Shown here in pieces: positions 4,035-15,613 of a DNA stretch of 22,019 bases (within the stretch, counting starts at the first letter, position 1; every line of letters begins with the position of its first letter). Below the pieces are notes generated by a model. That model was not told the origin of the DNA. It did not search any database and saw nothing but the letters and a program-made list of their open reading frames with translations. The translations under genes and the position numbers were made by a program. This DNA is from a virus. The DNA is taken from positions 1 through 22,019 of the IMG/VR virus record IMGVR_UViG_3300049893_000108. One strand, 5' to 3'.

Positions 4035-4524
4035 GATTCAACCTCTTAAAAATATGAGCATCACACCCGTCTGGGGCATAGGCTTCTAGGAACGCCTCAT
4101 GGCTGAATCCTATCAGTTCTGCCCATCGCAGGGCATAAGGATTATCATTTCTGACGGTTATCTGCAAACGACGCACATTATCCCGTTTAGATATGTGTTC
4201 GATCATCCGGCGGCTGCATCGGGTAAAGGTAACGATATTCTCGTTGGCGAAGTTCTTGTCCTTGAAAACTGTCACTTCCCAATTACCGGGCCAGAGATTG
4301 TATAGCAGATAGGCCGCTACTGGTTGACCATTGAGTATGACAGAAAAGGCATAAAAATTGTTAGCATACGCGACAACTATGTCATCGAAATTGTCATAAG
4401 CCGCAACCGTTCTTTGGTCTAAATCGGACAATTCCATGTCATGAATGTGTTTCACATGGAACTCGGTCGGTATCCATGTCATTGGGAACTGTGCTGATCC
4501 GATAATCTTCTGATCCGGCATCAT
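3991..4524 (-). CDS. GNAT-like N-acetyltransferase-fold protein
   Basis: A 177-aa protein with a GNAT-type pattern: a central beta segment (YAFSVILNGQPVAAYLLYNL, about 58-77), a helix-strand unit (RRMIEHISKRDNVRRLQITV), then the typical NPYALRWAELIGFSHEAFLE motif near residue 130, which matches the C-terminal acetyl-CoA-side region of GNATs. T7-type podophages often carry a GNAT-fold protein beside terminase or portal genes; its substrate is unclear. The start is an ATGATG at 4524 overlapping the TerL TGA, so translation is probably coupled. The last residues (HSTGSRFRQTR) overlap the next gene. Confidence 0.75.
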   Translation of the reverse strand: MMPDQKIIGSAQFPMTWIPTEFHVKHIHDMELSDLDQRTVAAYDNFDDIVVAYANNFYAFSVILNGQPVAAYLLYNLWPGNWEVTVFKDKNFANENIVTFTRCSRRMIEHISKRDNVRRLQITVRNDNPYALRWAELIGFSHEAFLEAYAPDGCDAHIFKRLNHGIHSTGSRFRQTR

Positions 4525-6104
4525 GCGAATACGTCGAAGTCCGTGTTTGCGGTTGTGGTTGCGAAGGGTTTACCACCGATGTGGTGGCCACGGGTCAATG
4601 TCCTAAACTCACCGCCGCCAAGCATAAGATACCCAAAAGCGTCCCCGATATGAGAATGTTCATTCTTGTTTGGCGCGTCACGGAATCTATCTGTGCCTCC
4701 ACCGACTCCAATTCTTTTAAAATGATAGCCTCCGGCAAGACTTTTTCTGAGTCTTTGGCATCCTGAGTCGAGGATAAGTCCGGGTTTTCCATCTATGAGC
4801 CTCTGCATTGGCAATGCGCCAGCTTCGCGGCGAACCATAAAGTCGTTCGATGCGGTCGGTTGAGCATTTAATCCGAGGGTTTTCAGGTAATCAAAGGCAG
4901 TTACCTCAAAAATACCGTCTCTCGCCACACCAGCCGGATCGCCCCAGATGAAGAGTTGAGCCTTTGGGAAGTGGGTCATGACATCGTGCATCATGATCTG
5001 GCCGAATCTTTCGAGGCCCATCGAGAACGAGACGATTTCGTGAAGGATATGCCAGCGTCCATTACGCATCTTCTGGCCGAAGACAGCCGCAGGAGTAAGC
5101 CCGAAGTCGAGCCCGATCTGGAGAGGTATTGATGGATCATAATCGAGCTTATCAACCACCATAAGGGTGTCTGAATACTCTGGCCAGACCTGTTTTCCTT
5201 CTTGGACATAGACATATTGGCCCCCGACATAGCATTTGATCCAGTCTAGGTTCTTGCCACCGAGTTGTTGCTCATAATAGCCGGGCGGAAGGTTGTTCGT
5301 GTTCTCTGCCTGATCATTCAGTATCCAGTGTCTGCCTGCCGCTGGTATAGCGTTTGGGTGGTCGGCTGGAACTTCGACCATTCCGGGTGGCTGTTTGAAG
5401 AATTTCCACTCATATTTGCCACGAATCGGCTCTTTTTCTGACAATCTATACCACCAATGGTCGGTATCCATCGGGTTGGTATCGGCCCAGATGCCACGCC
5501 AAGTCGGTCCACCATGCAGTTTAGTCGGGAAACGGCCCACGCGGTGTGTTAGGCCTTGAATAACAGCTAGCGGGAGTTCTCTTGCCTCGTTCACCCAAGC
5601 GCCAGTGAGTTCGAGAGACAGGAGTTTACGAACATCTTTTGGCTGATCTAGGGCTAAAAATATAACTTCGCAGTCAACGCCGGGTATTCCGTCACGGCCC
5701 GGCAGCTTCAGATGGTGGGTAATGGGCGGAGACCAGCGCATTGGTCCCCATACATCCTCTGGAAACAGGTTTTGCCATGTTTTAATCGTAGTTGTTCGCA
5801 ATTCAGGATACGAGTTACGGACGATGACGAAGCGGGTATAGCGCGTATTATCGACCGGAGACGGCTTTTGCTGGACGGCTTTTAGGAATATCTCGGCAGC
5901 ACAAGCATAGGATTTCCCACTACCGACAGGGCCGAGTAGCCCACGGAAGAAGGCATCGTTATTGAGGAACTTCCAAGTGGTCGGGGCTTGCGAGAAGTCG
6001 AGGTCTAGGCCAGCGGCGGCGAAAGACTCTGCGGCTTCATTCCGGGACTTCTTCTTTGGCGCTTTCATGCTTGATCTCATAGGTTGTTGTGGCTTGCGGT
6101 CCAC
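4521..6104 (-). CDS. terL: Terminase large subunit
   Basis: A 527-aa packaging motor. Walker A is GPVGSGKS (58-65); the Walker B/catalytic Glu region is GAWVNEARE (about 180). The C-terminal nuclease has acidic residues at IGLDFG, WGDPAG and HIGDAFGY. The ATPase pumps DNA through the portal and the RNase H-like nuclease cuts it. The longest frame begins with GTG at 6104, overlapping terS by 68 bases. ATG codons at 6080 and 6068 are alternatives, and the latter (MKAPKKKSR) has GAG about eight bases upstream and may be the true start. It ends in an ATGA-type overlap with the GNAT-like gene. Confidence 0.95.
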   Translation of the reverse strand: MDRKPQQPMRSSMKAPKKKSRNEAAESFAAAGLDLDFSQAPTTWKFLNNDAFFRGLLGPVGSGKSYACAAEIFLKAVQQKPSPVDNTRYTRFVIVRNSYPELRTTTIKTWQNLFPEDVWGPMRWSPPITHHLKLPGRDGIPGVDCEVIFLALDQPKDVRKLLSLELTGAWVNEARELPLAVIQGLTHRVGRFPTKLHGGPTWRGIWADTNPMDTDHWWYRLSEKEPIRGKYEWKFFKQPPGMVEVPADHPNAIPAAGRHWILNDQAENTNNLPPGYYEQQLGGKNLDWIKCYVGGQYVYVQEGKQVWPEYSDTLMVVDKLDYDPSIPLQIGLDFGLTPAAVFGQKMRNGRWHILHEIVSFSMGLERFGQIMMHDVMTHFPKAQLFIWGDPAGVARDGIFEVTAFDYLKTLGLNAQPTASNDFMVRREAGALPMQRLIDGKPGLILDSGCQRLRKSLAGGYHFKRIGVGGGTDRFRDAPNKNEHSHIGDAFGYLMLGGGEFRTLTRGHHIGGKPFATTTANTDFDVFA

Positions 6105-6444
6105 GGATATTGATGCCGAGGATAGACGGTCGTTGTTCGTCCGACCCGATCTCTAGTAGGCCGTGATGTTTACTGAGAAGGCGAAGAGCAGACAATTTGT
6201 CGTGCATCTCGACTTCGATAGCGTTTCCATCCTTGGTCGGGGTGACTTTGACCTTCTTGATCGACTTCTGAACGTGCAAAGGCAAGTCATAGGAGTTCTT
6301 TACCATCACATTACCAGTGGAGTCCCATGAGAGGACATCCGTAATGGCTGCCGACCCTATAGCCTCAATCTCATTCAGAACAGCTTCCCGCTTGTCTTCC
6401 GAACCAGAAGAGACCGATTTCCTCATAATTCTAACTCTACCCAT
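6037..6444 (-). CDS. terS: Terminase small subunit, short form
   Basis: A 135-aa protein whose body matches the C-terminal half of the Terminase_2-type small subunit: AITDVLSWDSTGNV (33-46), SIKKVKVTPT (61-70), EVEMHDKLSALRLLSKHHGL (77-96). The N-terminal helix-turn-helix segment usual in this family, which recognises the packaging site, is absent; only about 25 charged residues precede the conserved part. The ATG at 6444 has an excellent AGGAG site seven bases upstream, so the short form appears to be the real product. It is directly upstream of terL and overlaps it. Confidence 0.85.
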   Translation of the reverse strand: MGRVRIMRKSVSSGSEDKREAVLNEIEAIGSAAITDVLSWDSTGNVMVKNSYDLPLHVQKSIKKVKVTPTKDGNAIEVEMHDKLSALRLLSKHHGLLEIGSDEQRPSILGINIRGPQATTTYEIKHESAKEEVPE

Positions 6445-6633
6445 GAAGTCTCCTGTGGAACACGCTTGAAACTACCTTGACAGATATTGACTTAGACACC
6501 GCGAACCCCCTTAGTTATCCCCGTGAGGGGATACATCGTAACTTAGCTTAAACACGTTCTCCGAAAATTGAAAAAAAATTGAGAGGGTGACCCCGCAGTA
6601 GAGGCCGACCCCGGGGGGGAGGGATGGTGCCTG
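6445..6633. other. Noncoding region upstream of terS
   Basis: This 189-base gap lies between the Rep-like gene and terS, both leftward. I see no convincing gene in it. It holds a perfect hairpin (6516-6533), an A-rich tract (about 6568-6579) and a GC-rich patch (6584-6620) with two GACCCCG copies and a run of seven G. Two TTGAC elements sit ten bases apart (6477 and 6487, plus strand) just upstream of terS. A terminase recognition or cleavage site often lies beside terS, so this is the natural place for one, but nothing here proves it. Confidence 0.5.
6516..6533. repeat. Perfect 7-bp hairpin upstream of terS
   Basis: TATCCCC (6516-6522) and GGGGATA (6527-6533) form a perfect inverted repeat around a 4-base loop, 72 bases before the terS start. 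No U-run follows on either strand. It could be a protein-binding palindrome, an RNA hairpin in the late leader, or part of a packaging site. Confidence 0.5.
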
Positions 6634-7347
6634 TCACGCAAAGCACCCCCGTTGGATTAGGACGGCAAGTGACGGTGGTAACGATCCAAAGCGCGATAGA
6701 TGTGAGCGAAAAGCAAGCGTGATCTGTTCGGTTGTTGCGTCCTTTTCTATGAGCGTTTGAAGCGATGGCTTGTCGATGGTTATGTTGTAACCGTATGTGT
6801 TAGCCATTGATCTCACACCCCTTTCAATCCCCTTTGCCTTTTCCGTCTGTTCATCCGGTTCTTTTGGTTGAGCGTTCAACAGCTTAGTCTCACTTTGAGC
6901 ATAAGTTTCAAACGTATCTGTCGCGTATGGTATCGAAGCGATTAGGTCTTCATCAGTTGGCAAAGGATCGTCAGGTCTAAACATTACCTGATAGCGATTA
7001 GTTAGCCATTTGGAGGTTTGCGAGGGAAAGCGCTTTTGTTGTAGTTTACGGATCAACCCGTGGATCGTTAGGCGCTTAAGAGCATTGAGGATGCTTGAAC
7101 GGCTTAACCCTGTATAGGCTCTTATGGTCTCAATCGTTGGAAATGAGACACCGGAACGGCTGACAAACAAGCCAAGGGTGCCAAGAACCAATAGATCATA
7201 CGGCGCAACGTTCGGGTCACTTAGTGCCCTAGCCGGAATAATTGCATAGCGTTTGTTTGACGGGCGGCCCCTATGATTTTCACCGTCCACTATGCGGGAA
7301 ATGTATTTCACCCCGTTTGCGTTACGCCGTTTCTTTAACAATTTCAA
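6634..7347 (-). CDS. Winged-helix plasmid-Rep-like protein
   Basis: About 237 aa. Residues 34-123 look like the HTH_36/RepA-type winged helix found at the N-terminus of plasmid and phage replication initiators: KRYAIIPARALSDPNVAPYD, then a recognition-helix region PTIETIRAYTGLSRSSILNA followed by HGLIRKL. The rest is polar with a helical C-terminal part. There is no ATG: the frame opens at TTG 7347, and a second TTG at 7341 is better spaced (8 bases) from AAGG. It faces away from the ArdC unit across a short AT-rich gap, like a plasmid rep beside cargo. A transcriptional regulator is the alternative. Confidence 0.65.
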   Translation of the reverse strand: MKLLKKRRNANGVKYISRIVDGENHRGRPSNKRYAIIPARALSDPNVAPYDLLVLGTLGLFVSRSGVSFPTIETIRAYTGLSRSSILNALKRLTIHGLIRKLQQKRFPSQTSKWLTNRYQVMFRPDDPLPTDEDLIASIPYATDTFETYAQSETKLLNAQPKEPDEQTEKAKGIERGVRSMANTYGYNITIDKPSLQTLIEKDATTEQITLAFRSHLSRFGSLPPSLAVLIQRGCFA

Positions 7348-7373
7348 AGCCTTATATTATTCTAATCTTTTTT

Positions 7374-7402
7374 TAAATACCCCTATTGACTAAATCATTC
7401 AA
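7374..7402 (-). promoter_or_regulatory. Candidate leftward promoter for the Rep-like gene
   Basis: On the minus strand TTGAAT (7402-7397) and TATTTA (7379-7374) are separated by 17 bases, about 27 bases upstream of the first start codon of the Rep-like gene. The surrounding 70-base divergent gap is very AT-rich. The -35 matches four of six consensus bases and the -10 only three, so this is weak motif evidence. Confidence 0.3.
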
Positions 7403-7450
7403 TGTTGACAGATTGTAATGGTCTTTAACGCTCACAATATAGGTGCACAA

Positions 7451-7651
7451 ATGACCATCTCAGAAAAAACAAAGCAAATAGCAATTCTGAAGCGCGCGCA
7501 TGATAAGCGCATTGCTGATTTACGGGCGCAATATGAACGCGCCACGGCATTCGACAAAAAGTGTGATTTAATCGCGGCCAGAATTGAGGAAATACAAGCC
7601 TATTGTGACCAGGTATCCAAAATTTGCCACGGAAGCAAAGCTAATGTCTGA
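7451..7651 (+). CDS. Small basic coiled-coil protein
   Basis: A 66-aa protein, MTISEKTKQIAILKRAHDKR and onward, strongly helical with alternating charges (RIADLRAQYERATAF) and two C-terminal cysteines. The frame extends upstream to an ATG at 7418, but the ATG at 7451 follows AGGTGCACAA, almost the same leader as that of the downstream ArdC gene (GGAGATGCACAA). That supports this start and a common origin of the two leaders. Its stop overlaps the ATG of a 30-aa membrane peptide. The function is unknown. Confidence 0.6.
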   Translation: MTISEKTKQIAILKRAHDKRIADLRAQYERATAFDKKCDLIAARIEEIQAYCDQVSKICHGSKANV

Positions 7652-7736
7652 TCTCTTAATCATCCTTGAAGCCTATCAGGTATTTATCATTCCGGCCCTA
7701 ATCGGCCTTATCCTTTCCGCAATCATTGAAGCCTAA
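7644..7736 (+). CDS. 30-aa membrane peptide
   Basis: ATG at 7644 to TAA at 7734-7736 encodes MSDLLIILEAYQ followed by the hydrophobic stretch VFIIPALIGLILSAII and EA. One transmembrane helix is evident. The ATG lies eight bases inside the preceding gene (ATGTCTGA overlap), with GGAAG upstream, so coupled translation is likely. It fills almost the whole gap before ArdC. I recognise no family. The hydrophobic run and tight packing support a real gene, but its small size keeps confidence moderate. Confidence 0.5.
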   Translation: MSDLLIILEAYQVFIIPALIGLILSAIIEA

Positions 7737-7750
7737 TTGGAGATGCACAA

Positions 7751-8647
7751 ATGAACATTCAGGAAACAATTACCAATAAGATCGTGGCCGCCATTGAAGC
7801 CGGAGCAGGGGATTTTGAAATGCCTTGGCACCGTTCCGGTATCTCTTCCGGCTTGCCTCACAATCCTATCTCAAAGAATACTTATTCAGGGGCCAACGTC
7901 CTGAATTTATGGATTGAGCAACGAGATCGTGGCTATTCCTCGAATGAATGGGCAACGTTCAAGCATTGGCAATCCGTAGGGGCTACGGTTCGCAAGGGTG
8001 AGAAATCGGTTCATTGCGCCTATTTCTCACAAGGCATTAAGACAAAACAGAATGAGCAAGGCGAGGACGAAACAAAGGCCTTTTTGTTTGCCAAGCCCTT
8101 CTTTCTTTTCAATGCCGATCAAGTTGACGGATACAAGGCTAACGGTGAACCTGACACAATACCCGAGAACCTAGTTCAACGGATCGAAAACGCCGATCAA
8201 GCGATTAAGGCTACAGGCGCTGAAATCATTGAAGGGGGCTCACGGGCTTTTTATCGCCCCTCAACCGATGCTATTTATATGCCGGACCAGTGGCGCTTCA
8301 AACAAACCCCTGAGCACGATCCTACGCAAGCCTATTATTCAACGCTCTTGCATGAATTAACGCATTGGTCAGGGGCCGAGAAGCGCCTCAACCGGACCAA
8401 AGGCAAGCGATTTGGTGATGACGCTTATGCCTTTGAGGAATTAGTGGCCGAACTTGGTGCCGCCTTCCTTTGCTCTTCTCTTGGCATTGAAAATGAGCCG
8501 CGCATTGACCACGCGCAATATATTGACGGATGGTTGCGGGTTCTCAATGGCAACAAGAATGCAATCTTCTCAGCCGCAAGCCTCGCAACAAAGGCCATGC
8601 AATACATTCTGAAAGCGGAAGCCAAGCCGGAAGCCTTAGCCGCCTAA
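7751..8647 (+). CDS. ardC: ArdC-type antirestriction protein
   Basis: A 298-aa protein with the two-domain ArdC layout. An N-terminal single-stranded-DNA-binding domain (about 1-125) includes MPWHR, NPISKNTYSGANVL and VRKGEKS. A C-terminal zincin-like domain contains HELTHWSG (201-208), the metal-binding HExxH, followed by AFEELVAELGAAFL (227-240), which carries the third-ligand Glu region. ArdC proteins on conjugative plasmids protect incoming single-stranded DNA from restriction. GGAG precedes the ATG. It is the last gene of a short rightward unit ending in an intrinsic terminator. The full family length and intact HExxH suggest a functional protein; in a phage it would be an anti-defence cargo gene. 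Confidence 0.9.
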   Translation: MNIQETITNKIVAAIEAGAGDFEMPWHRSGISSGLPHNPISKNTYSGANVLNLWIEQRDRGYSSNEWATFKHWQSVGATVRKGEKSVHCAYFSQGIKTKQNEQGEDETKAFLFAKPFFLFNADQVDGYKANGEPDTIPENLVQRIENADQAIKATGAEIIEGGSRAFYRPSTDAIYMPDQWRFKQTPEHDPTQAYYSTLLHELTHWSGAEKRLNRTKGKRFGDDAYAFEELVAELGAAFLCSSLGIENEPRIDHAQYIDGWLRVLNGNKNAIFSAASLATKAMQYILKAEAKPEALAA

Positions 8648-8670
8648 TTGAAAGGACATAGAAACGAATT

Positions 8671-8697
8671 AGGGGGCCAACAAAGCCCCCTTTTTCT
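8671..8697 (+). terminator. Intrinsic terminator after ardC
   Basis: AGGGGGC (8671-8677) pairs perfectly with GCCCCCT (8685-8691) across a 7-base loop and is followed by TTTTTCTT. It lies 24 bases after the ardC stop and ends the rightward unit, before the leftward early genes that terminate from the other side. Confidence 0.9.
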
Positions 8698-8756: not shown

Positions 8757-9041
8757 TTAAAACGGTATAGCATCGTTTAGATCATGCGCTGATTGATAAC
8801 CATCAGCTTGAACCCTTGGTGAGCCACCCCTTGCGACAGTCTTGGCCACGCCATTGTTGTCGGGGTTCTCGTATTGACGGGCGGAGAGACTATAGAACGT
8901 CCGGCCATCTTCTTCGCGCATCCAGCCACCGAGATCAAACTTAACCCCGTCGATCCAGATGTAGCCTTTGAGATCGGGGTGTTTGTCTTCTTTTTTCGTC
9001 GGGTTTTTCCAGATTTTACCCATGTTTTTTTGAGTCGTCAT
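8757..9041 (-). CDS. Small phage protein with SSB-like acidic tail
   Basis: A 94-aa protein starting MTTQKNMGKIWKNPTKKEDK, with a beta-rich core (GYIWIDGVKFDLGGWMREED, then FYSLSARQYE) and a C-terminus DLNDAIPF. The core resembles small phage proteins of the type KNxxKxxDKHPDxxGxxxxDG. The last residues resemble the acidic D-D-I-P-F tail by which bacterial SSB recruits partners. The ATG at 9041 is chosen over the GTG at 9068 because AAAGGA precedes it at proper spacing. It is the last gene of the leftward early block. A single-stranded-DNA or replication accessory role is inferred. Confidence 0.6.
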   Translation of the reverse strand: MTTQKNMGKIWKNPTKKEDKHPDLKGYIWIDGVKFDLGGWMREEDGRTFYSLSARQYENPDNNGVAKTVARGGSPRVQADGYQSAHDLNDAIPF

Positions 9042-9146
9042 TGCATTTGATCCTTTCAAATTGTGCAATCCTGATACAGTAGCCCCATGGCGTTATGGCC
9101 GCAATCGGACGGGCCAATTTCCCAGTGGGCAAATCTCAGGGCGGCC

Positions 9147-9548
9147 CTAAAATTCCAATGCTTCCGATGGAATATCCTCTTTGCCTGTCATGGTGTCGAT
9201 CAGGGCGTTTACTCTCGCCTTCTCTTGCGCGGTCATGATTCTGGGCGGCTTGATCAATCTCTGGCTAGTATCTCCATGGCGCTCGTCGTAGCTGGTGTCA
9301 TACCAAACGGGCCACTGAGCCGGAACCATATACGGTTTGCCTTCCAGAAGCCTGCGATACAACCCGTCGGCCTTACTCGGTCGGCCCTTCCTCATGTAGT
9401 AATGCCACCAAGAAACGGCCTCCGGCCCATCGGAAACCATGAAACCTATGGCATCCGAGTTCATGCCTTGTAACTTCAGCATATAGGTAAGCTCCTCAAC
9501 GTCCTCGATTGGCATCGGGTGGCGTGGTTTAAACTGCTGTGTTTGCAC
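9147..9548 (-). CDS. Hypothetical early protein
   Basis: A 133-aa protein with a GTG start at 9548 preceded by GGAGAGAG. It overlaps the end of the O-like replication gene by 20 bases, so the two are cotranscribed. The Trp/Tyr-rich middle (VSWWHYYMRKGRPSKAD and PAQWPVWYDTSY) and the segment ARVNALIDTM are not a family I recognise. Operon position suggests a role with the replication genes. Confidence 0.6.
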   Translation of the reverse strand: MQTQQFKPRHPMPIEDVEELTYMLKLQGMNSDAIGFMVSDGPEAVSWWHYYMRKGRPSKADGLYRRLLEGKPYMVPAQWPVWYDTSYDERHGDTSQRLIKPPRIMTAQEKARVNALIDTMTGKEDIPSEALEF

Positions 9549-10308
9549 GTTGCTCTCTCCAGAATTGTTCGACTCTTGCTCTGCGTTCCTCGTCTGTCAT
9601 CTCGGCGAGGGGTTTCCATGGTGTCCCATCAGGGAATAATTTAACTGGTGCGGCGGCGGGGGAACTCCCCACGGTGGGCACATCCTCCCATCTCCTTTGG
9701 TTCAACCAAGTGGCTGGGTGAGGGATGTAGTTAATATCCTCTGAAAACTTATGGCTGCCGAGGGAAGCTATGATCGTCTGGGCTTCCGTGCTCTGCACCG
9801 CTTTGACCCACGCCTTCTCTGCGGCTCCTTTGCCTACCTTCCTCGGATAGCCAAGCCAAAACTTATCAAAGTCCTTAGACTTACTATCCTTCGACCGAAC
9901 TTGTTTCGGTTGATGAATATATTTCTTATTCTGTTCTGTATCTGTATCTGTATCTGGGGGCGTTACAGTAACGGTTTCGGAACGTTGCCTGAAACGTTTC
10001 ACTCTTTCCGTAGAAGTGTCTGATTTATATTGTCTTTTGTCCCAGTTATGAGGAGCGTAGTGATACCCGTTAGTGCCACCGTTCAGCTTGTCGATAAGGG
10101 TAGCGTTAAGCAACCGTTCGAGGAGCGTTACGACAGTGTTCTTTTCAATTCTGAGATGAAAGGCAATGTCAGCAACGTCCGGCAGAACACCGTCCTTCAT
10201 GCTTGCAATGCACAATAGATTGATCCAATGCCGGAATGTCTCGGCATCTAAAGCCTGAACTTTGGGATCGTTGAGAACTTCATTGTAAAGTCTGAACCAC
10301 TTGGACAA
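9529..10308 (-). CDS. O-like replication initiation protein
   Basis: A 259-aa protein from the chosen TTG start. The N-terminal winged helix begins SKWFRLYNEVLNDPKVQALD and continues with HWINLLCIAS and GVLPDVADIAFHLRI, as in phage O-type/DnaD-like initiators. A Thr/Asp-rich linker (TPPDTDTDTEQ) leads to a C-terminal module FDKFWLGYPRKVGKGAAEKA and IPHPATWLNQRRWED, which recurs in phage replication proteins. The frame is open to a GTG at 10362, but TTG at 10308 matches the family N-terminus and has AGGATTAAGG just upstream. It would bind the origin and recruit the host helicase. Confidence 0.75.
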   Translation of the reverse strand: MSKWFRLYNEVLNDPKVQALDAETFRHWINLLCIASMKDGVLPDVADIAFHLRIEKNTVVTLLERLLNATLIDKLNGGTNGYHYAPHNWDKRQYKSDTSTERVKRFRQRSETVTVTPPDTDTDTEQNKKYIHQPKQVRSKDSKSKDFDKFWLGYPRKVGKGAAEKAWVKAVQSTEAQTIIASLGSHKFSEDINYIPHPATWLNQRRWEDVPTVGSSPAAAPVKLFPDGTPWKPLAEMTDEERRARVEQFWREQRANTAV

Positions 10309-10363
10309 TGCCTTAATCCTCTTGAAAAGGTAGGCATGATCGTCCATAAGGTTAGACAACACG

Positions 10364-10386: not shown

Positions 10387-10431
10387 GAGGCGGCTACTGT
10401 TTCGGATGCGGTAGTCGCCTCATCTTTTTTT
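10387..10431 (+). terminator. Terminator-shaped hairpin on the gene-free strand
   Basis: GAGGCGGCTAC (10387-10397) pairs with GTAGTCGCCTC (10411-10421) through 11 positions, one a G-U, with a 13-base loop. It is followed on the plus strand by ATCTTTTTTT. By form this is an intrinsic terminator for rightward RNA, yet all genes around it read leftward. The U-run overlaps the end of the DnaA-like gene. It may stop antisense transcription, or act in leftward RNA simply as a hairpin. Confidence 0.6.
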
Positions 10432-10954
10432 AATCTAGTTTGAAGCCGTTAGCAATCTTCTCTTCCATCCTGCGGTAGCCATGAAGCACCGATGTATGGT
10501 CTTTATTCAGCATCCGGCCAACTTGCATCAGGCTCAGACCAAGTTCTCGTCTCAGCCGATAGTAAATCTCGAACCTACAATCAACGAACTTCTGGCTCTT
10601 GGCTTGGCCAGCCACGTCTATGAATGTCATGCCGTGCTTTACGAGAACCTTAGCGATCACATACCGAGCCGACTGCCGACCGGAGAAGCCCTTCATCAAG
10701 AAAGCTGTCTTCCGAAGGAACTCATTCTCGCCGTAGATTTGAGTCCAGACCTGATCCAGCATGGCGCGGAGAGCAATCTCTTCTTCCGGCTCTTGTGGTG
10801 CTAGATTGATGACGTCTCTAACTACTGGCTTCGGTGGCTCTATTGGCTCAGGCAGCTTCTCTTGTGGCTTTACTGGCACGATTGGCCGCGAGGGATAGAA
10901 CTTCTCCCGTAGGGCTTTGTGCTTCTCGTATGAATATGCGTATGCCGTTTCCAT
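10430..10954 (-). CDS. DnaA domain IV-like DNA-binding protein
   Basis: A 174-aa protein. Its C-terminal part (about 85-165) resembles the DnaA-box-binding domain IV: RLRRELGLSLMQVGRMLNKD followed by HTSVLHGYRRM (153-163), a variant of the DHTTVxHA signature that contacts the DnaA box. The N-terminal half is Pro/Glu-rich and lacks the AAA+ ATPase of full DnaA. Such truncated proteins in phages probably bind origins or DnaA boxes. The ATG at 10954 has GGGTGA upstream and lies inside the end of the RusA gene, an unusually long overlap of 107 bases. It precedes the O-like gene, consistent with a replication role. Confidence 0.8.
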   Translation of the reverse strand: METAYAYSYEKHKALREKFYPSRPIVPVKPQEKLPEPIEPPKPVVRDVINLAPQEPEEEIALRAMLDQVWTQIYGENEFLRKTAFLMKGFSGRQSARYVIAKVLVKHGMTFIDVAGQAKSQKFVDCRFEIYYRLRRELGLSLMQVGRMLNKDHTSVLHGYRRMEEKIANGFKLD

Positions 10955-12751: not shown

Positions 12752-12834
12752 TTGACAATCTCCATTTGTGTATGTAGCGTTCGGCTACGTTCTGATTCGT
12801 AAGAGCGTATGCACAATCTGTCAAGGGGGTATCC
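12752..12834. promoter_or_regulatory. Divergent early control region
   Basis: An 83-base gap between the leftward and rightward early units. TTGACA occurs on the plus strand at 12752-12757 and on the minus strand at 12824-12819, so both -35 elements point inward across the gap. Leftward, TTGACA is followed after 17 bases by TACGAA (12801-12796). I see no good -10 at the right distance for the rightward TTGACA. A small stem GTAGC/GCTAC (12774-12778, 12784-12788) lies in the middle. Regulation by the adjacent winged-helix or Cro-like proteins is plausible. Confidence 0.45.
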
Positions 12835-13059: not shown

Positions 13060-13670
13060 CACAATTAGCGAATAACCAGTTGATCGAGGCATTGCATAAG
13101 GTTCAAGGCCAGATTTCTGGCGTGAAGCGAGACTCAACTAACCCGCATTTTAAGAACAGATATGCGTCTTTAGAAGCAGTTGTTGATGCACTTAGACCAG
13201 TCTTGCAAGCGAATGATTTGATTGTGACCCAAGCACCCGGTCGATTTACTGAACTTGGATGTATTGAGATTACTACCACAATTTCGCACATCTCTGGCCA
13301 ATCAATGAGCAGCGTATTTGAAATACCTTTATCAAAGAAAGACAGTCAGGGGGCAGGCTCAGCAATTACCTATGGCTGCCGCTACTCTTTGATGGCATTA
13401 TTTTTATTGCCCCCACAGGATGACGACGCTGAGGGGTCTATTGATCGCAGTGAAACTCGCCCTGCTAAAAGCAGTTATGCCCTAAAGAAAGAGAACCCTA
13501 ATCGGTGGCCAGAAGTTGAGGCTATGATCCGGGGGGCGAAGAACCGCAAGCAATTACTGGAAGTTAAATCTGAGTTGAGGAAAGAAGCCGAGACTTGGCC
13601 ACAAGCATGGCGTGACTCTCTAAATGAGATTTATTCAGTCGCTTGGGATGAGTTGGAATTTACTCAATGA
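13056..13670 (+). CDS. erf: ERF-family single-strand annealing protein
   Basis: A 204-aa recombinase. The N-terminal ERF domain (about 5-130) is clear: NPHFKNRYASLEAVVDALRP (29-48), ISHISGQSMSSVFEIPL, the central GAGSAITYGCRYSLMALFLL signature (about 99-118) and the DDDAEGS loop that follows. The C-terminal third (ALKKENPNRWPEVEAMIRGA onward) is helical and variable. ERF proteins anneal complementary strands and support phage genome circularisation and recombination. It begins within the preceding stop (ATGA) and ends in another ATGA overlap with its partner gene. Confidence 0.92.
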   Translation: MTQLANNQLIEALHKVQGQISGVKRDSTNPHFKNRYASLEAVVDALRPVLQANDLIVTQAPGRFTELGCIEITTTISHISGQSMSSVFEIPLSKKDSQGAGSAITYGCRYSLMALFLLPPQDDDAEGSIDRSETRPAKSSYALKKENPNRWPEVEAMIRGAKNRKQLLEVKSELRKEAETWPQAWRDSLNEIYSVAWDELEFTQ

Positions 13671-13978
13671 GCAATCTCTCTGAGGAATACAGACTGGCGG
13701 CGAAGGAGTGGGTTCATCAAGACTCCGTTGCCGCCTTGATGGAAGAAACAAAGAGCCACTGGTTTGCTCAACGTGTTCTTAAGTTAGGTGCTGACAGGCC
13801 AGTGAACCAAAGAGAGATGGAAGTTAAGGCTCACCCAGAGTGGCATGAATATATCGAGAAGATGGTCATGGCGCGAAAGGAAGCTAATCTCTTGAAGGTG
13901 AAGATGGAATGGATACGGATGCGGTTCGCAGAAAGACAGTCATCAGAGGCGACGACGAGAGCCGAGATGCGCCTGTAA
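13667..13978 (+). CDS. Conserved partner gene of ERF
   Basis: A 103-aa helical protein: SEEYRLAAKEWVHQDSVAAL, LMEETKSHWFAQRVLKLG, PVNQREMEVKAHPEWHEYIE and KEANLLKVKMEWIRMRFAER. The last segment is a strong amphipathic helix. This architecture is familiar from genes placed directly after ERF or Rad52-like annealases in tailed phages; its biochemical role is not known to me. ATGA overlap with ERF shows coupling. The last 70 bases are shared, in another frame, with the HNH gene. Confidence 0.75.
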   Translation: MSNLSEEYRLAAKEWVHQDSVAALMEETKSHWFAQRVLKLGADRPVNQREMEVKAHPEWHEYIEKMVMARKEANLLKVKMEWIRMRFAERQSSEATTRAEMRL

Positions 13979-14337
13979 GAAAAACGAAGTCGAGGAAGTT
14001 ACGTGCAGAATTATTCCAACAACACAACGGCATCTGTCATATTTGCCAAGGTAAAATCTTGGGCCACGAACGCTGGGAAATCGAACACATCATACCGCTC
14101 TCGCTCGGCGGAGAAGATGGTGGCGATAACCTCGCTCCGGCTCACCAGTCCTGTCATCGCGGGAAAACGAAAGAGGATATTAGGCGGCTTTCTAAAGCCA
14201 AAAGACAACGCGCTTTTCACTTGGGTAATAGAGTCTCCAGAACTCCGCTACCCTTTGGAAGACAAAGCAAACTAAAGAGAAAATTAGATGGCACAATTAT
14301 TCAGCGTAAACCAAGGAAGAACACCGATGCACCATAG
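13909..14337 (+). CDS. HNH endonuclease
   Basis: A 142-aa basic protein with an HNH nuclease fold. Zinc-type CHIC (43-46) and SCHRG (81-85) bracket the catalytic EIEHIIPLSLGGEDGGDNLA (58-77), with His60, Asn74 and His83 as the HNH residues. A Lys/Arg-rich tail follows. The chosen ATG has GAAGATGGA before it and overlaps the preceding gene by 70 bases; a start nearer the core is possible because the first 25 residues are poorly conserved in appearance. Inside a recombination operon it is more likely a phage nuclease acting in DNA processing than a homing endonuclease, but this is inference. Confidence 0.85.
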   Translation: MDTDAVRRKTVIRGDDESRDAPVRKTKSRKLRAELFQQHNGICHICQGKILGHERWEIEHIIPLSLGGEDGGDNLAPAHQSCHRGKTKEDIRRLSKAKRQRAFHLGNRVSRTPLPFGRQSKLKRKLDGTIIQRKPRKNTDAP

Positions 14338-14650
14338 TGACGTATTAAAATCAGCACAGTCGATCCTCAATCAACGTAGCAATGAATATGGCGACATGAG
14401 CGCGTCATTCGTTCGGGCCTCGACGATTGCATCTGCAATCTCTGGGAAGACAATTAGTTCTTACGACATCGCTATCGTGATGATGGCGGTAAAAATGTCC
14501 AGGATCGGCCACAATAAATCCAAGCCTGATAGCTGGGTTGATCTGGTTAATTACACGACATTTGCTGCTCAGTTTGCAGATGAAGAACCTGACAATGTTC
14601 GCAAGTTAAACCTTGCAGAGACAAAGCAGAATATCGCCGATGCCAGTTGA
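14327..14650 (+). CDS. DUF6378-like protein
   Basis: A 107-aa protein from the chosen ATG: MHHSDVLKSAQSILNQRSNE, YGDMSASFVRASTIASAISG, SSYDIAIVMMAVKMSRIGHN and PDSWVDLVNYTTFAAQF. The pattern RxxxYGD...F, D.A..M...K..R and D...D...Y matches what I know as DUF6378, common in phage replication regions and of unknown function. An ATG at 14288 is in frame, but 14327 has AAGGAAG upstream and matches the family N-terminus. It overlaps the HNH gene by 11 bases. Confidence 0.8.
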   Translation: MHHSDVLKSAQSILNQRSNEYGDMSASFVRASTIASAISGKTISSYDIAIVMMAVKMSRIGHNKSKPDSWVDLVNYTTFAAQFADEEPDNVRKLNLAETKQNIADAS

Positions 14651-14741: not shown

Positions 14742-14982
14742 GACAAAACGAGACATGGCAATGGCACGATACGCAGACATGGAAACCATTGACCACATCA
14801 TCGAACTGCGTAAAGAATTAACACAGGTCAAGAAAGAACGTGACAATGTGTTGGCTCATGCAGTTGAGATGGCTGTCATCCGTGCCGAGAATGATTGGCT
14901 GAAGGATAAGGTTATCAAACTCAATGGTGTGGTTACCAAGTTGTCTAATGAATTGAAGATCATGCGAGACAATGAAGAGTAG
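14728..14982 (+). CDS. Coiled-coil protein
   Basis: An 84-aa charged protein with a helical, heptad-like middle (IIELRKELTQVKKERDNVL and IRAENDWLKDKVIKLN) ending in LSNELKIMRDNEE. GGATG precedes the ATG at 14728; an internal ATG at 14755 is an alternative start. It is tightly packed between the membrane peptide and the amidotransferase-like gene, which begins 11 bases before this gene's end. No family is recognised. Confidence 0.6.
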   Translation: MVGFETKRDMAMARYADMETIDHIIELRKELTQVKKERDNVLAHAVEMAVIRAENDWLKDKVIKLNGVVTKLSNELKIMRDNEE

Positions 14983-15613
14983 GATCGCAATCTTCAGGCA
15001 TGATCCAGAGGCAAGCCAAGACTGTGTCGATGGCATGGTCGAGGCTTTGTCTGGTGAGTTCTCTATAGTTACATTCGATGAGACAGAATATGCACAAGCA
15101 ATTACAGACGCAGACATCGTGGCATTTCCCGGTGGAATCGGGGATGCGGCAAGATATTACGATTTCTTTAGACGTAGGGACGGAAACGAAATTGAAGATT
15201 TCATCTCGCGTGGGGGGAAATATCTCGGAATCTGTATGGGCGCTTACTGGGCTGGACCAGATTACTTTGACTTGCTCAACGGCCTTAGTCCCGTTCAATA
15301 CATCAAGCGTGAAGGAGCAGACGTAAAGAGATCATTCAGCACGATTGCCGATGTCGAATGGCTCGGTAAGAAAACGAAGATGTTCTTCTATGATGGATGC
15401 ACATTCACCGGAGAAGGACGCTGTCAGATCATTGCGCGCTACGCGAACGGTGATCCGATGGCAATCATACAAGGAAGGGTTGGGCTTATCGGCTGTCATC
15501 CAGAGGCCCAGCAAAAATGGTTCAATAAAAAGTATATGCAGAAATACTGGCATGGCGGCGCTCATCATGAGTTGCTGCTGTCATTCACAAAGAGACTGAT
15601 GAGGCAGAAATGA
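14972..15613 (+). CDS. Class I glutamine-amidotransferase-like (BPL_N-type) protein
   Basis: A 213-aa protein with the flavodoxin-like amidotransferase fold. FPGGIGD (52-58) is the oxyanion region, YLGICMGAYWAG (84-95) is the nucleophile elbow with Cys88, and GCHPEAQ (174-180) supplies His176 and Glu178. The triad spacing is that of class I glutamine amidotransferases, and the overall look is closest to the biotin-protein-ligase N-terminal (BPL_N) group. It could hydrolyse glutamine or another amide to feed a partner enzyme, but no amidoligase or synthetase is visible in this window. It overlaps both neighbours, the next by ATGA. Fold is confident, substrate unknown. Confidence 0.85.
   Translation: MKSRIAIFRHDPEASQDCVDGMVEALSGEFSIVTFDETEYAQAITDADIVAFPGGIGDAARYYDFFRRRDGNEIEDFISRGGKYLGICMGAYWAGPDYFDLLNGLSPVQYIKREGADVKRSFSTIADVEWLGKKTKMFFYDGCTFTGEGRCQIIARYANGDPMAIIQGRVGLIGCHPEAQQKWFNKKYMQKYWHGGAHHELLLSFTKRLMRQK

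Follow-up and report, generated by a model that had tools for sequence, protein, structure and literature searches.

A divergent ArdC cassette in a variable gene slot beside a terminase-linked winged-helix gene of MEP301-like phages

ArdC is best studied on conjugative plasmids and shields incoming DNA from bacterial restriction enzymes, which raises the question of what an ardC gene is doing next to the terminase genes of a tailed phage, facing a gene for a Rep-like protein. The window analyzed here is a whole virus record of 22,019 bp (IMG/VR record IMGVR_UViG_3300049893_000108), a fragment of a genome of approximately 34 kb of which some 12 kb is missing. Near terS, the Rep-like gene (hereafter Rep) points leftward while a small gene (P77), a 30-aa peptide and ArdC point rightward, all located where an initial sequence-only reading had placed them (Table 1). 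That reading regarded the block as a captured plasmid fragment, an anti-defence cargo island or the sign of a phage-plasmid lifestyle, with Rep as a surplus initiator. Two of its descriptions need tempering, as the “basic” protein P77 is only mildly basic (13 K+R vs. 9 D+E) and the “strong” terminator, while it does have a hairpin and a T run, is only of moderate strength (DNA-fold z-score of −1.8). A foreign composition of the block was considered and rejected, since its GC content (0.475 for Rep and 0.494 for ArdC) lies inside the spread of the phage's other genes. A search of Rfam gave no match and PADLOC gave nothing notable.

Table 1. Features of the terminase-Rep-ArdC region, in window coordinates.
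Feature	Position	Strand	Remarks
terL, large terminase	4521..6104	(-)	phrog_2 1e-23; 66% to Methylophilales phage MEP301 TerL; constant partner of Rep
terS, small terminase	6037..6444	(-)	Pfam Terminase_2 2e-8
Conserved rep-terS intergenic element	6474..6612	.	hairpin TATCCCCGTGAGGGGATA, TTGACAGATATTGAC, ACCCCGCAGTAGAGG
Rep-like winged-helix protein	6634..7347	(-)	TTG start, 237 aa; HTH_36 6e-7
Divergent promoter region, with TTGACTAAATCATTCAATGTTGACAGATTGT	7348..7417	.	kept in L002 and L006
P77, variable small gene of cargo operon	7418..7651	(+)	77 aa; no family match
Hydrophobic (membrane) peptide of 30 aa, directly before ArdC	7644..7736	(+)	93% in L006
ArdC	7751..8647	(+)	298 aa; ArdcN + MPTase-PolyVal
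Terminator-like hairpin, closes ArdC operon	8671..8691	(+)	GC-rich, T run
ssDNA-binding-like (SSB-like) protein, far border of cargo slot	8757..9068	(-)	phrog_7364 2e-9
O-like replication protein, separate from Rep	9529..10362	(-)	phrog_270 9e-24
DnaA domain IV-like protein	10430..10954	(-)	Bac_DnaA_C 7e-8

The position of Rep is constant across its relatives. From 94 non-redundant Rep loci, the 83 with at least 1.8 kb of downstream DNA were taken into the linkage count, and a terminase gene lies downstream of Rep in every one of them (TerS in 80 and TerL in 82). As a guard against circularity, loci obtained through Rep alone were given their own count, and here too the terminase was present in 25 of 25. 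Among IMG/VR relatives found by TerL (66–97% identity), every contig that extends far enough has Rep upstream of terS and in the same orientation. The gene on the other side of Rep varies: of the 45 loci whose upstream DNA is long enough, 30 have a primase/helicase, 9 an O-like gene and 6 a divergent ArdC. The primase-helicase-like protein is encoded on the same strand as Rep and matches Pfam AAA_25 (4e-41), while its putative Toprim part was read from the sequence by eye and has no family match. In the sub-clade to which the window belongs, O-like and SSB-like proteins upstream of Rep replace the primase-helicase arrangement. Rep is a terminase-linked core gene of the MEP301-like phage family, upstream of terS and terL, with the terminase as its constant partner and an upstream partner that varies. 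The separate O-like and DnaA-like proteins that made Rep look surplus do exist, but Rep coexists with an O-like protein in the sub-clade and, across most of the broader family, with a primase/helicase, which makes this a family trait.

Three neighboring genes deserve a separate description. The O-like gene keeps its C-terminal half (YPRKVGKGAAEKAW...) in the close relatives L002 (5094–5843) and L006 (5455–6309), while the N-terminal DNA-binding half differs, an exchange that appears from the sequences to be a swapping of initiator specificity. The DnaA domain IV-like protein is without the AAA+ part, is 99–100% identical in close relatives, and may be an origin-site binder or a decoy. Further along, the rightward early operon carries a gene (14972–15613) for a protein resembling the biotin-protein-ligase N-terminal/glutamine-amidotransferase family (BPL_N 2e-12), which is also kept in close relatives.

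What kind of protein Rep is can be approached through its family, its fold and its distribution. HTH_36 is the sole family above the Pfam cutoff in the window protein, and the Rep family as a whole is seen by Pfam only as a generic winged helix, with weak matches that include MarR-type regulators; no membership of a plasmid Rep family (Rep_3, RepA_N, RP-C and others tested) was found above cutoff. The PHROG matches, on the other hand, are overwhelmingly to replication-initiation families, with 35 of 36 members matching phrog_270. An AF2 model (pLDDT of 81.5) has a winged helix, a disordered linker and a helical C-terminal domain that does not match a known helicase-binding C-domain. Foldseek searches with this model gave 127 viral matches at E ≤ 1e-3, of which most are phage HTH proteins and some are O-like proteins, and no PDB match at the same threshold; DnaD-like, RepA_N-like and regulator winged helices are not distinguishable in the PDB fold search. 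Rep shares the winged-helix domain with the O-like/DnaD-like replication proteins of phages (phrog_270, phrog_391) but is without the conserved YPRKVGK C-terminal domain of the O-like protein, and unlike those proteins it is always linked to the terminase. It is under purifying selection (dN/dS of 0.12–0.15). A single-sequence tblastn against INPHARED phages returned no match, and four Rep homologues were found in MAG contigs fetched via TerL, each adjoining a terminase. In the cultured phage MEP301 the Rep homologue is gp55, annotated as hypothetical. MEP301-type marine phages (PMC8024684) also resemble the window in TerL identity and in genome size (~34.8 kb), but MEP301 has no ArdC match, and GC content is 33.5–37.8% in those phages compared with ~49% here.

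These observations bear directly on the two plasmid readings of the locus. Were the whole block of Rep, P77, the membrane peptide and ArdC a captured plasmid fragment, Rep would be a vegetative plasmid initiator, and some evidence leans in this direction: plasmids often carry ArdC (it matches 3062 PLSDB records, the best at ~48–50% identity across most of the query), the generic winged helix of Rep is common to plasmid RepA_N initiators (weak Foldseek matches to 4pql, 4pt7 and 5kbj), and 7 of the 36 family members have weak RP-C matches, 0.0017 at best. Rep itself, however, has no tblastn match among 72,556 PLSDB records at E ≤ 0.01 and no relative in GTDB genomes for the one pattern set searched, which was made from a smaller Rep alignment. 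It is linked to the terminase with or without ArdC, and no iterons were found around it. Relatives have this gene in the same location and with ordinary composition, and it groups with phage proteins; for Rep, this is the pattern that the sequence-only reading had itself named as contrary to capture. We regard capture as an extremely improbable account. An extrachromosomal prophage maintained by Rep is scarcely better placed and very unlikely. It would suit the finding that 15 relatives, several of them near-complete at ~34 kb, have no tyrosine integrase, as well as the presence of three initiator-like proteins in the phage. The same 15 relatives nevertheless have no ParA/AAA_31 partition gene, and one member of the family (L233, at G016:C36 63,502–98,844, with TerL at 69% and Rep at 5e-53) is an integrated prophage in a 186-kb Hyphomicrobiales MAG contig. 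This prophage has an integrase ~22 kb from terL, a YqaJ-like gene, and a flanking 16-bp exact repeat, 35.3 kb apart, as candidate att site, so the phage family includes integrated temperate members, and no sign of a plasmid state was seen.

The third possibility, an anti-defence cargo island, is supported once it is narrowed. Within the O-like sub-clade, the interval between Rep and the SSB-like gene forms a slot whose genes are divergent from Rep and whose content differs: the window clade has ArdC there, L018 and L168 have GP88, L171 has DUF7227, and L013 has six small ORFs. Loci L022, L175 and L178 likewise have ArdC immediately divergent from Rep, and L174 has GP88 in this position, although not every one of these four loci shows the far border. 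The slot ArdC proteins occupy at least three separate positions on the ArdC tree (at least three changes), and a single origin is rejected with an AU p of 0.009, an optimistic value in that the grouping was chosen after a quick tree had been viewed. One site with differing content among relatives is what characterizes a counter-defence or accessory hotspot. ArdC and its small companions therefore do sit in a content-changing slot as cargo, ArdC not being part of the Rep unit, and Rep stands outside this cargo.

Exchange is visible at finer scale as well. P77 has no homologue in the relatives, where unrelated ORFs of 57, 81 or 105 aa take its place, so that even close relatives differ in the leading gene of the operon while the membrane peptide and ArdC are retained; hydrophobic ORFs of 30–40 aa lie directly 5' of ArdC in L002, L009 and L088. 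Compared with relative G002, DNA identity is 0.92–0.97 just left of 6.6 kb, falls to 0–0.8 at 6.7–10.3 kb and then returns to ~0.9 or more, whereas G001 departs from the window at just two points within the same stretch, the P77 region and the O-like N-terminus. The drop relative to G002, with recovery on both sides, suggests that the Rep allele, the cargo, ArdC and the O-like gene act as an exchangeable module. A further proposal would make the slot a dedicated counter-defence site, with GP88 (phrog_1617), DUF7227 (phrog_2554), P77 and the small ORFs as new anti-defence proteins interchangeable with ArdC; we offer this tentatively and consider it rather doubtful. GP88 and DUF7227 are counter-defence candidates by position, and nothing relevant to their function was found in the literature.

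ArdC itself is well preserved. It has an N-terminal ArdcN domain (PF08401 3e-32, residues 2–118) and a C-terminal zincin domain (MPTase-PolyVal, PF18818 1e-48), matches the anti-restriction family phrog_7245 at 3e-87, and keeps the metallopeptidase residues intact (HELTH at 201–205, with HE(202)LTH and the glutamate E230); its dN/dS is 0.03–0.05. The match to R388/pSa ArdC (PDB 6i89, 6sna) extends over the full length of both domains (1e-46) with the HExxH motif and glutamate ligand conserved, but here the gene is on a tailed phage beside terS and no conjugation genes are seen in the window. The phage anti-restriction proteins of phrog_7245 (Caulobacter phiCbK group, Pelagibacter phages Hodr and HTVC011P) belong to the same family at 35–44% identity but occupy separate ArdC branches, and what sets the window ArdC apart from them is its location beside terS, within a divergent slot of variable content. 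In Pelagibacter phage Hodr (OQ414635, L134; TerL 43%), ArdC (13573–14457) is annotated as hypothetical and lies in a rightward operon near the terminase region. ArdC of R388 binds ssDNA, acts against HsdRMS and has to be present in the recipient, and it resembles Spartan/IrrE (PMC7213743). Its antirestriction activity is independent of protease activity (PMC7213743), so the catalytic step may serve something else. Among phage-type polyvalent proteins, ArdC-N is reported to occur only rarely (PMC5512222). By analogy with these characterized proteins, the window ArdC would have an anti-restriction role.

It is also important to consider the DNA between the genes. The rep-terS intergenic DNA is 97% identical to that of L002 and L006, for which terS dS is 0.25 and 0.18, and 82% identical to that of L009, where TerL dS is 1.26. 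This conservation, far above that of synonymous sites, means that the region is probably a functional element, with an operator, an origin or a packaging site as possible identities. The motif TTGACAGATTGT is common to 7405–7417 (+) and 12812–12824 (−), both in divergent early promoter regions, and is possibly a common phage promoter or operator. A TGACA-N3-TGTnA dyad at the ArdC promoter, present in L002 (identical to L004) and L006, was dropped as a Rep operator since it is missing in L013, L018 and L089. No origin signature emerged when the genome was scanned for repeats in 400-bp stretches. A CGCAACCGYTC repeat at 12.0–12.3 kb was set aside, as it is irregular and two relatives did not show it.

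Two alternatives concern function rather than origin. Instead of being a replication protein, Rep could control transcription, either of the terminase/late operon or at the divergent ArdC promoter. The linkage to the terminase while upstream replication genes change, the strong conservation of the rep-terS DNA, and the TTGACAGAT-type motifs at early promoters all speak for this. The PHROG matches point the other way, as does the operon that Rep shares in most of the family with the Toprim-like/AAA_25 primase-helicase, and we hold this to be a serious but less probable reading. Family and operon context slightly favor Rep as an initiator, and its retention when replication genes change favors a regulator. 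ArdC, for its part, could serve phage DNA metabolism instead of counter-defence, through ssDNA protection in replication or Spartan-like removal of bound proteins. The ssDNA binding and Spartan/IrrE resemblance of its R388 counterpart are consistent with this, and the window ArdC neighbors SSB-like and recombination genes, but its patchy presence and its replacement by unrelated slot genes are better suited to accessory cargo, and we judge such a role unlikely.

The explanation that we favor, with fair confidence, is that an anti-restriction cassette, expressed early from a divergent promoter, lies next to a DNA-binding initiator or regulator of the phage that is fixed at the terminase. The most likely role of Rep is to bind phage DNA, as an initiator-type replication protein and/or a switch protein, with the conserved rep-terS element and the divergent promoter as its likely targets. 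As the layout suggests, the rightward accessory operon would be expressed early, soon after DNA entry, from the divergent promoter. ArdC would then coat single-stranded or replicating phage DNA and/or cleave bound protein via its metallopeptidase domain, and immediately after entry this would keep type I or similar restriction systems of the host from attacking the phage genome. The interval from Rep to the ssDNA-binding gene is a slot in which accessory genes of this kind replace one another repeatedly.

What was suspected to be plasmid capture thus becomes a rule of the widespread, mostly uncultured MEP301-like phage family, namely that the DNA-binding gene keeps its place at the terminase, with a slot of changing content opposite Rep in one sub-clade. 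The entry of ArdC into this slot at least three times means that dsDNA phages appear to use ArdC in their own right, and the position of the slot yields a short list of uncharacterized counter-defence candidates, GP88 and DUF7227.
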